Origin: Natrialbaceae archaeon Tc-Br11_E2g14
GTDB lineage: Archaea; Halobacteriota; Halobacteria; Halobacteriales; Natrialbaceae
Assembly (NCBI GenBank): GCA_001564275.1
Contig: LKND01000018.1
Span: forward strand, 1-39,179
Direction of reading: 5' to 3'
DNA: 39,179 bases
Part shown: piece after piece, positions 24,109-29,320 of the stretch
Numbering within the stretch: position 1 is the first letter of the stretch
How the letters are laid out: every line of letters begins with the position of its first letter
Made by a program: the position numbers and the translations under genes
Notes under the pieces: model-generated
Told to the model about the DNA's origin: nothing
The model's input: only the letters and a program-made list of their open reading frames with translations
Databases searched by the model: none

Positions 24109-24999
24109 ATGCGCACGCTCGTGGTGGGGGCGACCGGATTCGTCGGCAGACGATTGGTGGACGCACTCCTCGAGCGGGGCCACGATGTCGTCGCCTTCTC
24201 GCGGCACGCCAGCACCGAACCGTTCCCCGATGAGGTCGAACCGTTCGAGGGCGACCTCGAGGATCCCGACTCGTTGACGGGACTCTGTGCCGACGTCGAC
24301 GTCGCCTACTATCTCGTCCACTCGCTGACCGACGACGATTTCGCCGAGCGCGATCGACGGTATGCCAGCCGCTTTCGTGACCTGGCCACTGCGGCTGGCG
24401 TCGACCGGGTGATCTACCTCAGCGGCATCAGTGGCGATGGCGTCGATCTCTCGGAGCATCTGGCCTCCCGGCGTGAGGTGGAATCGCTGCTGGCGGGCGG
24501 CAGCTACGACCTGACGGTGCTTCGGGCGGCCGTCATCATCGGCGCGGGAAGTGCCAGTTTTCAGATCCTCGAGGACCTGAGCGAGCGACTGCCCGTGATG
24601 GTCGTCCCCGAGTGGGTTCGGACGCCGTGTCAACCGATCGCAATCGGCGACGCCGTCACCTATCTCGTCGAACTGCTCGATGCCGATGAGACCCGCGGCG
24701 AGACGTACGACATCGGCGGGCCGACGGTCTGGTCGTACGAGTCGCTCCTCCGACTCACTGCCAGCGAGAAGGGCAAAACCATCTACATCGTTCCGGTGCC
24801 GGTGATGACTCCCGAACTGTCCTCACACTGGCTCCGTCTGACGACCGAGGTGGCGTACCCGGTCGCTCGAGCGCTCGCCGAGAGTATGCGAAACCCGGTG
24901 ACAGTGCGCGAGGACGCCGACCTGCAGCGAGTGATCCCGATCGATCGGACGTCGATCGACGCCGCGGTGCGAACGGCCCTCGCTGCGGAGGACGGGTGA
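24109..24999 (+). CDS. NAD(P)-binding atypical SDR / NmrA-like protein
   Basis: A 296-residue Rossmann-fold protein starting MRTLVVGATGFVGRRLVDAL with the GxxGxxG dinucleotide motif at residues 7-13. Further family marks are FEGDLEDPDSLTGLCADVD, VAYYLVHSLTDDDF, and YLSGISGDG, in place of the classical YxxxK active site, so it may be a regulatory or isomerase-type member. The C-terminal part contains ETYDIGGPTVWSYESLLRLT, common in this group. The substrate cannot be deduced. The ATG at 24109 is chosen because it begins the Rossmann strand, with GCTATTGAG about 28 bases upstream; the open frame upstream overlaps the SWIM gene. Confidence 0.9.
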   Translation: MRTLVVGATGFVGRRLVDALLERGHDVVAFSRHASTEPFPDEVEPFEGDLEDPDSLTGLCADVDVAYYLVHSLTDDDFAERDRRYASRFRDLATAAGVDRVIYLSGISGDGVDLSEHLASRREVESLLAGGSYDLTVLRAAVIIGAGSASFQILEDLSERLPVMVVPEWVRTPCQPIAIGDAVTYLVELLDADETRGETYDIGGPTVWSYESLLRLTASEKGKTIYIVPVPVMTPELSSHWLRLTTEVAYPVARALAESMRNPVTVREDADLQRVIPIDRTSIDAAVRTALAAEDG

Positions 25000-25058
25000 C
25001 CGCTGGAGGGTGATGGTCGTGGGTGGGCGGCTGCTGGGGGACTGCTGGCCACCCACAG

Positions 25059-25478
25059 CTAGCCGTCGCGGCCAGCCCCTGTCGCCCCCGAGCGAACGGG
25101 CTCGAGATGCTCGCGAGCCGCGGGCTCGAGGGCGAAGGTGCCGTGGATGTCCGCGGGTGCTTCGCCGTGGACGACCCGTCCGAACGGGTCGGCGATTTTG
25201 GGATAGAGCCGTTCGAACGCCCTGGCCGCCGGCCCTCTCACCCCTCGAGCGGTCATCGCCCGTTCGACCGCCCGTTCGCCGGCGTGGACGGCGTCGCCCT
25301 CGATGAGCAGGAAGACGAACGGCTGGCCGCCGAATTGGGCCTCGAGAAACGCCTGTATCGGCTCGGATTCCCAGGGCACGGCGACGATGTCGTCCATCCG
25401 GTAGGTGAAGGCGTCGGCGACCGTTCGGAACGGCCGTTTTCGGCCGTCGTAGACGAGAACCGCGGGGTGATCGCTCAC
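25059..25478 (-). CDS. DCC-like thioredoxin-fold protein lacking the CxxC
   Basis: A 139-residue protein starting VSDHPAVLVYDGRKRPFRT from a GTG at 25478. Its layout follows DCC (DUF393) proteins: a first strand, VLVYDG, at the place of the DGxCxxC motif, then AVPWESEPIQAFLEAQFGGQ, then FLLIEGDAVHAGERAVERAM. The last segment matches VVLIEGDRAYVKSGAVLRTA of the intact DCC protein at 746-1207. Both cysteines are replaced (DGRKRPFR against DGVCNLCN), so redox activity is unlikely. The relationship is my inference from pattern matching. The upstream in-frame sequence is basic and non-conserved in character, so the GTG is preferred. The gene diverges from the acyl-CoA dehydrogenase gene. Confidence 0.68.
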   Translation of the reverse strand: MSDHPAVLVYDGRKRPFRTVADAFTYRMDDIVAVPWESEPIQAFLEAQFGGQPFVFLLIEGDAVHAGERAVERAMTARGVRGPAARAFERLYPKIADPFGRVVHGEAPADIHGTFALEPAAREHLEPVRSGATGAGRDG

Positions 25479-25586
25479 GATGACGTCGCTAGGCGGCCGA
25501 TGGGTGTGATTCTTTCGAAGCCGGGTGCACACGGCGTGGCTCGAGGCGACAACTCGAGGCAACTCAACACCTGTTTCTCCTGCGCC

Positions 25587-25594
25587 ATTTTATG
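25587..25594 (+). promoter_or_regulatory. TATA box of the acyl-CoA dehydrogenase gene
   Basis: ATTTTATG is centred about 30 bases before the ATG at 25620 and fixes that start against the very long upstream open frame. Confidence 0.65.
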
Positions 25595-25619
25595 CCCCTC
25601 CGAAACCGAGTGGTCGATC

Positions 25620-27503
25620 ATGACAAACGGTATCGACTACGGCCGCCTCGAGGACGGCCGCCACGTCAACTACTGGCGCCTCGATCGGACCATCAGGCGG
25701 GAAGTCAGGCGGACCTATTCTACCGAGGAGTTCGCGTGGGCGACGGCCCGCCTCGAGTCCTTCGGCCACCTGATCGGCCACACCGTCGCTGACAACGCCG
25801 ACTGGATCGACGATCACGGGCCCGAACTCGAGACCTACGATCGACACGGCGAGGTACAAAACCGAGTGCGATACCCGGCCGAACAGCACGAAAACGATCG
25901 GCTGGTCTACGAGTCGGGCATCGTTGCCGACGCATTCGAGGCCCCGCCAGGCCGCGAGGACCCCATGCCCCTGACGCACAACCTCGTCATGCAGTACCTG
26001 CTCTGTTACGCCGACGTCGGGTTCAACTGCCCGGTCGCGATGACCGCCGGGGTCGCCCTCGTGCTCGAGAAGTTCGACGACGGTGCGCTGGCGGCATATT
26101 ACGAGGGGCTAACCAGCCGGGAGTACGAGGATTGCATCGAGGGGGCGATGTTCCTCACGGAAAAGCAAGGCGGTAGCGACGTCGGGGCGACCGAAACCCG
26201 GGCCGAGTGGGATCCGGCGACCGCGTGTCACCGTCTGTACGGCGAGAAGTGGTTCTGCTCGAACATCGACGCCCAGGGCACCCTGGCGCTCGCCCGCACC
26301 GAGGACGCACCCGACGGGATCGGCGGCCTCTCGCTGTTTCTCGTCCCCCACGAACTCGAGGGCGAACTGAACGACCAGCTCTACCGCCGCCTGAAGGACA
26401 AACTCGGAACCACGTCCGTGCCGACGGGCGAGGTGGAGTTCCGGGGCGCGAGAGGATTCCTGATCGGCGAGGAAACCCGCGGGTTCCACCAGATGGCCGA
26501 GATGGTCAACCTCGAGCGACTGTCGAACGCCATCGGCTCCTGTGGCCTGATCGGTCGCGCCCTGCTCGAGAGCAAGATCAAGGCGGCGAACCGGGAGGCC
26601 TTCGGCGAGACGATCGATCAGTATCCGCTCATGCGTCGCGATCTGGTGGACATGACCGTCGACCACGAGGCCGCGACGGCGTACACCATGGAAGCCGCCC
26701 GGCTCTTTTCGGTCCGCGAGCGGGCCGAGCGGGCGAAACGCGGTGCCCTCGAGGCCATGGGCCCGGACGACGTCGACGAGGAGCGGGCCGAACGAGCCTA
26801 TCGGCTCATGCGGCTTTTGATCCCCATTGCCAAAGCCAGGACGGGGCGTCTCGCGGTCGACACCGCCTCATACGCCATGGAGATTCAGGGGGGCAACGGC
26901 TACGTCAACGAGTTCGTCACCCACCGACTGCTCCGGGACGCCCAGGTGTTGCCCATCTGGGAGGGGACCGAGAACATCCTCTCGCTCGACGTCCTGCGGG
27001 CGCTCGAGCGCGAAGCGGCCCACGAACCGCTCCTCGAAACCGTCACGACGCGCCTCGAGGGAATCGACCATCCCGCGCTGGCGGACACGACAGCGACCGT
27101 CGAGGCGTCACTCCAGGAACTCGGTACGGCCCTCGCGACGCTCGCGAGCGAGGACACCGATTACGCCCAGCTACAGGCGAAAGAACTGGCCCACTTCATC
27201 TACGACGTCTTCGCCGCCAGCCTCCTGCTCGAGCAGGCCCAGGACGCCCTCGAGGGGCGTGGTGCGCCGGGTGCCGTGGCTGCTGGCGATCCGGCGACCG
27301 CGGCGGATGACCGCGGCGGGGGTCAGCCGGACGCCCGACTCGCGCTGATCGCCCGCCGATTCGTGCGCCGACACCTCACGGAACGACCCGCTCGTGGGAT
27401 CACCGACGGGGAGCGACTCGCGCTGGAGCACTTCGATTCGATCGTCCGGTTCGCGCCGCTCGAGCCGGCGGCCCTGCTTGCGAGAGCGGGTGAGACCGAG
27501 TGA
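25620..27503 (+). CDS. AidB-type acyl-CoA dehydrogenase
   Basis: A 627-residue FAD-dependent acyl-CoA dehydrogenase of the long AidB-like subgroup. The two family signatures are present: AMFLTEKQGGSDVGATET near residue 180 and EIQGGNGYVNEFVTHRLLRD near 420, followed by QVLPIWEGTENILSLDVLRA with the Glu at the usual catalytic position. The extra C-terminal helical region (about 450-627) is typical of AidB relatives and carries a low-complexity Gly/Ala/Asp insertion near residue 555. Substrates could be branched or medium acyl-CoAs; the E. coli AidB role in alkylation response should not be assumed. No other fatty-acid gene is adjacent; a P450 gene converges 178 bases downstream. Confidence 0.92.
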   Translation: MTNGIDYGRLEDGRHVNYWRLDRTIRREVRRTYSTEEFAWATARLESFGHLIGHTVADNADWIDDHGPELETYDRHGEVQNRVRYPAEQHENDRLVYESGIVADAFEAPPGREDPMPLTHNLVMQYLLCYADVGFNCPVAMTAGVALVLEKFDDGALAAYYEGLTSREYEDCIEGAMFLTEKQGGSDVGATETRAEWDPATACHRLYGEKWFCSNIDAQGTLALARTEDAPDGIGGLSLFLVPHELEGELNDQLYRRLKDKLGTTSVPTGEVEFRGARGFLIGEETRGFHQMAEMVNLERLSNAIGSCGLIGRALLESKIKAANREAFGETIDQYPLMRRDLVDMTVDHEAATAYTMEAARLFSVRERAERAKRGALEAMGPDDVDEERAERAYRLMRLLIPIAKARTGRLAVDTASYAMEIQGGNGYVNEFVTHRLLRDAQVLPIWEGTENILSLDVLRALEREAAHEPLLETVTTRLEGIDHPALADTTATVEASLQELGTALATLASEDTDYAQLQAKELAHFIYDVFAASLLLEQAQDALEGRGAPGAVAAGDPATAADDRGGGQPDARLALIARRFVRRHLTERPARGITDGERLALEHFDSIVRFAPLEPAALLARAGETE

Positions 27504-27681: not shown

Positions 27682-29130
27682 TCAGTCGTCAGCTGTCGCT
27701 TCGCTTTCGTCAGCGTCGGTCCTCCCGTCGCTCGAGCCGGCGGCTTCCCCAGCATCCGGCTCCGTGACAGCTCCCTCGCCACGGCTGCTCGCCAGCGGCC
27801 CGTCCGTCCGCCGCTCGAGACGCATCTCCATGCCACCCTCGGGGTGGACCGTCAGCGAGCTTCGCAGCTCGATTGGGCCGTCGTCGACCCGTCGAAGTGT
27901 GAACCGCTGGGCGATGATCGCGGCGAGGATCGGGGCCTCGAGCATCGTGAATCCCTTGCCGATGCAACTCCGGGGCCCGGCACCGAACGGGAAGTAGGCG
28001 TAGGTGGGGTGGTCGGGATCGAGCCAGCGGTCGGGATCGAACGCCGTGGGGTCATCGAAGTATCGGGGGTCCCGGTGGCTCGCCCACTGGGAACACATGA
28101 TCAGCGAGTCGGCGTCGATGTCGTAGCCAGCGAGGCTGACGTCAGTGTCCGCCTGCCGGAACATCACGTACACCGGTGGGTAGAGTCGCATGGACTCGCG
28201 CAATACGTTCCGAAGGGTCGGCAGCTGTCGGATCTGCGTGGCCGTCGGGACCTCACCACCGAGCACTTCGTCGACCTCCGCGTGGAGCCGGCGTTCGACC
28301 TCGGGAGCGTCCGAGAGGAGCGCCCAGGTGTAGGTCAACACTAGCGCCGTCGTGTCGTGGCCCGCGAGCAACATCGTCAGAAGTTCGTCTCGAATCCCCT
28401 GTTCGTCGATTGCGCCCGCCGCCTTCGCTTGCAGGAGCAACGCGAGTAGGTCCTGGTCGTCGGGATCGATGCCCGACCGACGTCGCCGACGGACGAGGTC
28501 GTCGACCACCTCCTCGAGTTTCGCGATCGAGCGCTCGAACTGGCGGTTTTCCCGCGTGGGCAGCCAGTCGGGGATCACGGCCCGACGCGGGTCGGGCTCG
28601 AACCGCTGGCCCACCGGCTCGAGGAGGTGGGCCGTCTTCTTCGCCAGACCGACCGGGAGGTCGACGCCGAACATCGCCTCGACGATGATCTCGAGGGTCG
28701 TCCGGGTCATCTCCCACTCGATATTTCGGACGTCGCCGTCGTTCCAGCGGTCGACCATCGCGGTGGCCCGGTCGACCATCACGGGTGCCAGGCTGGCGAT
28801 TCGGTCGGGGGCGAACGCCGGACCGGCCATGCTTCGCCGCTCGCGCCAGAGATCGCCCTCGCTGAGGAGCAATCCCTCGCCGAGTAACTGCCCGAGGGCA
28901 TCGGTCTGGAAGTCGGGCTTCGAGAACGAGTCGGCCTCGCTGACCAGGACCCGCTCGATCGAGTCGGGGGTCAGGGCCATGTACGTCCGATTGGGGCCGA
29001 GGTCGAACGCCGCGAGGTCGCCGTAGCCGTCGCGAACCTGCTCCATGAACGCGAATGGGTCTCGCGCGTACCGTGGCAGGACGCCGACCGGTGGAACACC
29101 GTTTGGCCCTGGCACGACGTGATCTGTCAT
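27682..29130 (-). CDS. Cytochrome P450
   Basis: A 482-residue soluble P450 monooxygenase. The hallmark motifs are AGHDTTALVLTYTWALL in the I-helix near residue 253, the ExxR of LRESMRLYPP near 311, FDPDRWLD, and the haem loop FPFGAGPRSCIGKGF with the axial Cys389. The sequence resembles the CYP102/CYP4-like bacterial and archaeal group. The substrate is unknown, and the ferredoxin and reductase partners are not in the window. The C-terminal 40 residues form an acidic Ser/Asp/Glu tail, an adaptation common in halophiles. The ATG at 29130 is chosen because CTTTACG is centred 24 bases upstream; the frame is open to 29220. Confidence 0.95.
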   Translation of the reverse strand: MTDHVVPGPNGVPPVGVLPRYARDPFAFMEQVRDGYGDLAAFDLGPNRTYMALTPDSIERVLVSEADSFSKPDFQTDALGQLLGEGLLLSEGDLWRERRSMAGPAFAPDRIASLAPVMVDRATAMVDRWNDGDVRNIEWEMTRTTLEIIVEAMFGVDLPVGLAKKTAHLLEPVGQRFEPDPRRAVIPDWLPTRENRQFERSIAKLEEVVDDLVRRRRRSGIDPDDQDLLALLLQAKAAGAIDEQGIRDELLTMLLAGHDTTALVLTYTWALLSDAPEVERRLHAEVDEVLGGEVPTATQIRQLPTLRNVLRESMRLYPPVYVMFRQADTDVSLAGYDIDADSLIMCSQWASHRDPRYFDDPTAFDPDRWLDPDHPTYAYFPFGAGPRSCIGKGFTMLEAPILAAIIAQRFTLRRVDDGPIELRSSLTVHPEGGMEMRLERRTDGPLASSRGEGAVTEPDAGEAAGSSDGRTDADESEATADD

Positions 29131-29150
29131 GGACTGGCTAGCGGCTACGT

Positions 29151-29157
29151 CGTAAAG
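29151..29157 (-). promoter_or_regulatory. TATA-like element of the P450 gene
   Basis: Minus-strand CTTTACG is centred about 24 bases before the ATG at 29130. Confidence 0.5.
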
Positions 29158-29320
29158 ACGGTTCTCCCGAACAACGTAACCGGGCCCTGGTCCGGGGTGG
29201 TCACGCTGTCGCCAGGCCACTCACTCAACGGCGCTCTCACAGGCGGTCATCGCCCGACAAAGACCGAGACACAGTGACGAACGATGGGCTTCGACCCCTT
29301 CTCGGAGCGGCTACTCCCGC

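Follow-up and report, generated by a model that had tools for sequence, protein, structure and literature searches.

The window, that is, the whole stretch of DNA analysed here (39,179 nucleotides of Natrialbaceae archaeon Tc-Br11_E2g14), contains a small gene without a single cysteine codon, a neighbouring gene that ends almost where the first one ends, and, at some distance, a classical member of the DCC family. The features used in this analysis are the following:

25059..25478, minus strand: cysteine-less DCC-like protein, 139 residues plus a TAG stop codon, GTG start
25425..25451, minus strand: former active-site stretch YDGRKRPFR (residues 10-18), with K14 and F17 in the two cysteine columns
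25134..25187, minus strand: C-terminal conserved stretch PFGRVVHGEAPADIHGTF (residues 98-115)
24109..24999, plus strand: candidate partner, an NAD(P)H-binding atypical SDR (Pfam NAD_binding_10) of 296 residues, tail to tail with the cysteine-less gene and with 59 nt between the stop codons
746..1207, plus strand: canonical DCC1-like protein (DGVCNLC; PF04134, E 7.9e-30), a distant cysteine-bearing comparison outside the pair

The reading frame of the cysteine-less protein was traced on the minus strand from the GTG at 25478 to the TAG at 25059; its product carries the motif YDGRKRPFRT and none of the 139 residues is a cysteine. It is overlapped by a frame (25023-27503, plus strand) that runs antisense to the neighbouring acyl-CoA dehydrogenase ORF, and the protein matches nothing in Pfam or NCBIfam up to an E-value of 10. 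The overlap and the missing Pfam match would suit a DCC gene in decay, or an ORF that arose by chance on the strand facing a longer frame. However, dN/dS (NG86) was 0.09-0.37 in all six close cysteine-less pairs tested, the gene is intact and free of internal stops in 30/30 genomes, and mean column identity reaches 54% across 27 aligned cysteine-less sequences. The gene is under purifying selection, and its being a pseudogene or a chance frame was rejected as scarcely credible.

Within the order, 137 of the 293 genomes searched contain homologues of the protein; in a wider sample of the phylum they appeared in 28 of 294 genomes, every one of them inside that order. The alignment comprised 95 homologous ORFs with 94 distinct sequences, of which 58 keep both cysteines of the DCC motif, 35 have neither, and one (L081) presents Tyr and Arg instead. 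The cysteine-less type is present in 30 of the 293 genomes (31 loci) with scores of 169-218 bits against its own profile, whereas the cysteine-bearing loci among the matches listed stay at or below 93 bits, so that two separate score bands are seen. The cysteine-bearing group, hereafter the sister, shows the motif DG[ED]CPYCS and its variants, and both cysteines are kept in 58 of its 59 aligned members. The exception is again L081 (1647-2099, minus strand), which could reflect an independent loss, gene decay or a sequencing error; it was left out of the clade counts, as its genome is in about 400 contigs with 70% completeness and decay or error is possible. Concerning the surroundings of the sister, in some lineages a gene with a ferritin domain recurs next to it (L039-L097; 19 of the 62 loci compared), which could connect the sister with iron or oxidative stress.

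The earlier note had described the 25059-25478 product as a DCC-fold protein that has lost both catalytic cysteines, and this description agrees with the alignment: together with the sister and with canonical DCC proteins, K14 and F17 occupy exactly the two cysteine columns of a genuine ORF. Across the clade, neither cysteine is kept in any of the 35 distinct cysteine-less homologues, which answers the question of whether the pair is missing throughout. The first site is variable (T in 14 sequences, N in 10, K in 7, R in 3 and S in 1), and the second is Phe in 35/35, followed by Arg in 34/35. No other cysteine column could take over the function, since the commonest one is occupied in only 14 of the 35 sequences, all from one genus, and 17 of the 35 have no cysteine anywhere. 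Ahead of the former motif, Tyr-Asp is invariant in the cysteine-less group and also occurs in the sister, where the Asp is invariant. Furthermore, the cysteine-less proteins share a second, strongly conserved region near the C-terminus, with the pattern PFGRxxHG...ADxxGTF. It includes G100, H104, G105 and G113, which are invariant in 27/27 aligned proteins. This region differs in the sister, from which the FGRxxHG part is absent.

Regarding the origin of the protein, the earlier note had matched its layout to that of the intact protein at 746-1207. The pairwise comparison of both sequences did not bear this out (BLASTP, E 0.074, not significant), but the relation emerged with profiles. When 27 cysteine-less sequences were compared by hhalign with 37 cysteine-bearing ones, the probability was 99.8% and the E-value 1e-29 over the whole length; against canonical haloarchaeal DCC proteins, including 746-1207, the values were 92% and 6.6e-7, and the DG motifs lay in register. 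The score against canonical DCC (44.9) was reached by none of 100 column shuffles (maximum 21.3), a reversed-profile control scored 12.0, and 35.1 was still obtained after masking residues 6-19, the motif region, so the homology proposed earlier is significant and survives removal of the motif. The sister itself connects to the named family, as PF04134 recognises 37/37 of its tested members at E<=1, with a best E-value of 2e-8 and several scores above the gathering cut-off, and the Haloarcula marismortui copy is annotated in RefSeq as 'DCC1-like thiol-disulfide oxidoreductase family protein'. Only one of 27 cysteine-less members matches PF04134 at that threshold (E 0.007), and a PDB sequence search with the cysteine-less or the cysteine-bearing profile returned no meaningful match. 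On these profile comparisons, the cysteine-less clade shares descent with DCC1-like proteins; its nearest outside relatives are the haloarchaeal DCC1-like subfamily with DGxCxxC, and 746-1207 is a distant paralogue. It is best described as a conserved clade that derives from DCC proteins and has neither cysteine. However, the 25059-25478 protein does not show the DxxCxxC pattern of PF04134 proteins and, judged by Pfam and by CxxC, it should not be named a DCC thiol-disulfide oxidoreductase.

The structure predicted by AlphaFold2 from the window protein and five relatives has the order E-H-E-H-E-E-H (E6-10, H15-25, E31-35, H39-49, E56-60, E63-66 and H68-77), with a pLDDT of 73.9 and a pTM of 0.72; residues 95-109 fall below a pLDDT of 50. 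This is the beta-alpha-beta-alpha-beta-beta-alpha topology of thioredoxins, the fold that had been anticipated from the letters. Foldseek gave no match in the PDB at E<=0.001. With a second aligner the top matches were MglA/SspA (Z 5.8, rmsd 2.4-2.6, 75-77 residues; one of them, over 77 residues with 8% identity, tied with unrelated GST folds), followed by glutathione transferases, glutaredoxins, CLIC1 and the thioredoxin-like domain of SasA. The best 11 matches, all with Z of at least 5.0, are GST, glutaredoxin, thioredoxin or CLIC folds, although the best Z, 5.8, lies in the range in which, by the tool's own warning, a match may mean merely a common arrangement. The DCC family is absent among the structural matches listed. 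These data are consistent with a thioredoxin-like fold, predicted with moderate confidence, and the structure alone is not decisive.

The word 'lost' deserves separate attention. The absence of the cysteines holds throughout the clade; the direction of the change rests on parsimony, with a root that is not firm. In a careful tree that included the motif columns, the cysteine-less set formed one clade with weak support (88/33) and the sister stood on a branch with 97/94. A quick tree without these columns kept the sister (99) and placed the distant canonical DCC outgroup inside the cysteine-less set, which implies two changes. CxxC is found in canonical DCC proteins as well as in the sister, which makes a one-step loss the simplest reading, and the cysteines would have been lost rather than gained.

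A protein without cysteine cannot carry out thiol-disulfide exchange by the usual mechanism, and a thiol-redox role of the 25059-25478 protein is, to judge from its residues, very unlikely. The earlier suggestion of a non-redox member, perhaps a binding or regulatory protein, gains support in this way, 'non-redox' being a reading of the residues. It could be argued that the protein is still redox-active or catalytic through other residues, as a cysteine-free enzyme of peroxidase, isomerase or transferase type. Cysteine-free glutathione transferases work with Ser or Tyr, GST-like N-domains are among the nearest folds, YD is invariant, and His104, Arg101 and Asp110 are conserved in the C-terminal stretch. 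Nevertheless, YDG is also found in the cysteine-bearing sister and is therefore not a new active site, and the position of the first cysteine is not conserved (T/N/K/R/S). Catalysis by other residues seems to us highly improbable.

The gene next to the cysteine-less one offers a more concrete lead. The SDR at 24109-24999 matches PF13460 (E 1.4e-16, 61.3 bits, cut-off 27.2) and carries the nucleotide motif GxxGxxG as GATGFVG at residues 7-13, invariant in 16/16 sequences; a profile of 16 partner-type SDRs matches, among solved structures, the NDUFA9 chains of complex I (1e-11). As to the substrate, this resemblance is a lead only. The same type of SDR lies directly downstream on the opposite strand at 19 of 26 cysteine-less loci (18 of 25 minus a duplicate), with a gap between stop codons of -8 to 59 nt that is exactly 0 in nine loci. 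Genes placed tail to tail do not form one operon. Besides the SDR, no gene family is common to more than five of the 26 loci, and the flanks of 92 sister or canonical DCC loci gave a single weak SDR match (32 bits).

Other features of these neighbourhoods were recorded in passing. A cytochrome P450 gene is near the pair in the window (27685-29220, minus strand) and in a genome of the same genus (G100; L128:8342-9739, minus strand). The partner SDR is found on megaplasmids of two named haloarchaea, adjoining another SDR gene in divergent orientation, and in one locus (L006) the SDR next to the cysteine-less gene is an 84-residue piece, with a full-length copy on another contig. Thermus thermophilus pTT27 (L198, 35809-54699) encodes a longer protein that is homologous to the SDR (38% identity), about 4-9 kb from genes for CarH, LdrP, phytoene synthase, photolyase and cytochrome P450, which is a lead only; a 'complex I NDUFA9 subunit family protein' is annotated within the same stretch.

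The profile of 16 SDRs was run over the same 293 haloarchaeal genomes. The specific SDR appeared in 33 of them at 529-599 bits and the next SDR group began at 394 bits and continued downwards; by these scores the partner subfamily is clearly separate from the widespread haloarchaeal paralogue. Both the cysteine-less protein and the specific SDR are present in 30 genomes, the protein alone in none, the SDR alone in 3 and neither in 260 (Fisher p 6.6e-38, in a test that counts genomes as independent although 14 of the 30 belong to one genus, g41). Two controls, counted in the same order, showed no association: the cysteine-less protein with the SDR paralogue (19/11/177/86, p 0.68) and the cysteine-bearing sister with the specific SDR (14/106/19/154, p 0.85). 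Of the 30 genomes with the cysteine-less protein, 13 also encode the sister, which serves as an internal control. The SDR was also found in three of three further genomes searched (those of loci L002, L003 and L006). Within genera g1, g19, g41, g49, g52 and g59, the genomes bearing the protein have the SDR, and the remaining ones lack both, apart from three that have only the SDR. These three genomes are G051 (L189), G067 (L190) and G215 (L188), and the cysteine-less gene was not found within about 5 kb of their SDR; hence, the SDR can be kept without the cysteine-less protein.

The arrangement of the pair differs among the genomes. The genes are tail to tail in 15 of 30, representing 10 of 12 genera, and for adjacent genes joint gain or loss comes free. 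In the other 15, namely 14 genomes of genus g41 plus G060, they are far apart, and the g41 SDRs still score 561-570 bits although none of them entered the SDR profile. Between the distance matrix of the 30 SDRs and that of the 30 cysteine-less proteins the correlation is r 0.91, a value reached by 0 of 2000 permutations, and members of families f1, f4 and f5 cluster alike in both trees. This agreement fits a pair that moved between families as a unit, and shared species history also contributes to it.

The same grouping across f1, f4 and f5, together with the frequent adjacency, would also fit a transfer of the block in which the SDR is merely a fellow traveller and the cysteine-less protein is a non-redox thioredoxin-fold adaptor for some other partner. 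Against this, all 15 genomes with non-adjacent genes keep both of them, and the 26 loci examined offer no other neighbour shared by more than five. An adaptor for a different partner is an unlikely explanation, although one that deserves to be kept in mind.

The start of helix 1, where the invariant Phe-Arg is found, is the place where thioredoxins contact their partners. This position and the strict co-occurrence with the SDR suggest a non-redox partner or regulatory subunit. On the best reading of these data, the cysteine-less protein would be a binding partner or regulatory subunit, with a thioredoxin fold, of one specific SDR, and we would give this even chances. The DCC1-like ancestor would have given up thiol-disulfide chemistry while keeping the thioredoxin fold; where helix 1 begins, the CxxC would have given way to a polar residue that varies, two further residues and then Phe-Arg, and the new C-terminal FGRxxHG...GTF stretch would have been added. 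The old active-site face, now with Phe-Arg, may act as a docking surface for a protein or a ligand, and the SDR at 24109-24999 would supply the nucleotide.

Alternatively, the pair could together form an enzyme: the SDR would do the chemistry, and the DCC-like protein would carry or bind the substrate, which would be a lipid, a quinone or a similar hydrophobic compound. The SDR is of the NAD_binding_10/Epimerase type and NDUFA9-like among solved structures, and the residue that replaces the second cysteine is an invariant Phe; nevertheless, a carrier and a regulator are indistinguishable on the present data, and taken by itself the carrier is rather improbable. The full proposal covers both functions. 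In it, a DCC-type thioredoxin fold left redox catalysis and became the obligate companion, free of cysteine, of an NAD(P)H-binding SDR dedicated to it, either as a regulator or as the subunit that binds the substrate; the two would have passed from one haloarchaeal family to another as a unit and would have stayed together even where their genes became separated. This full account is put forward tentatively, with its chances somewhat below even.

The SDR partner is a new result beyond the earlier claim. It gives the cysteine-less protein a testable function, turns an orphan into a concrete pair, and provides a joint hypothesis for two anonymous haloarchaeal annotations, 'hypothetical protein' and 'NAD(P)H-binding protein'. 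Moreover, a clade that kept the fold and abandoned the chemistry would reveal what, besides thiols, is recognised by the DCC fold. Experimental work on the DCC family is almost absent from the library searched, and the titles and beginnings of abstracts listed for DUF393/DCC and for CXXC-less archaeal thioredoxin folds mention no cysteine-less DCC protein.

Among known systems, MglA/SspA, CLIC1 and the thioredoxin-like domain of SasA use their fold for binding instead of thiol-disulfide exchange. Their arrangement is similar to that of the model over residues 3-83 (Z 5.0-5.8, below the level trusted by the tool; rmsd 2.4-3.5 A), but they have no sequence relation to the cysteine-less protein, and the likeness is one of arrangement and not of their binding to RNA polymerase, membranes or clock proteins. 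As for the partner, it belongs by its PF13460 match with the atypical NAD_binding_10/NDUFA9-like SDRs, whose NDUFA9 chains its profile recovers, and within them it forms a subfamily of its own (529-599 bits), distinct from the paralogue that is common in haloarchaea (<=394 bits). The closest comparison is with the DCC1-like family itself (PF04134, formerly DUF393). The cysteine-less clade shares with it the order of the fold, the YDG start and the position of the motif, and its closest subfamily, the cysteine-bearing sister, aligns over the whole length. Unlike PF04134 proteins, the clade has no CxxC cysteine and presents instead the FR and FGRxxHG motifs and what appears to be a dedicated SDR partner.
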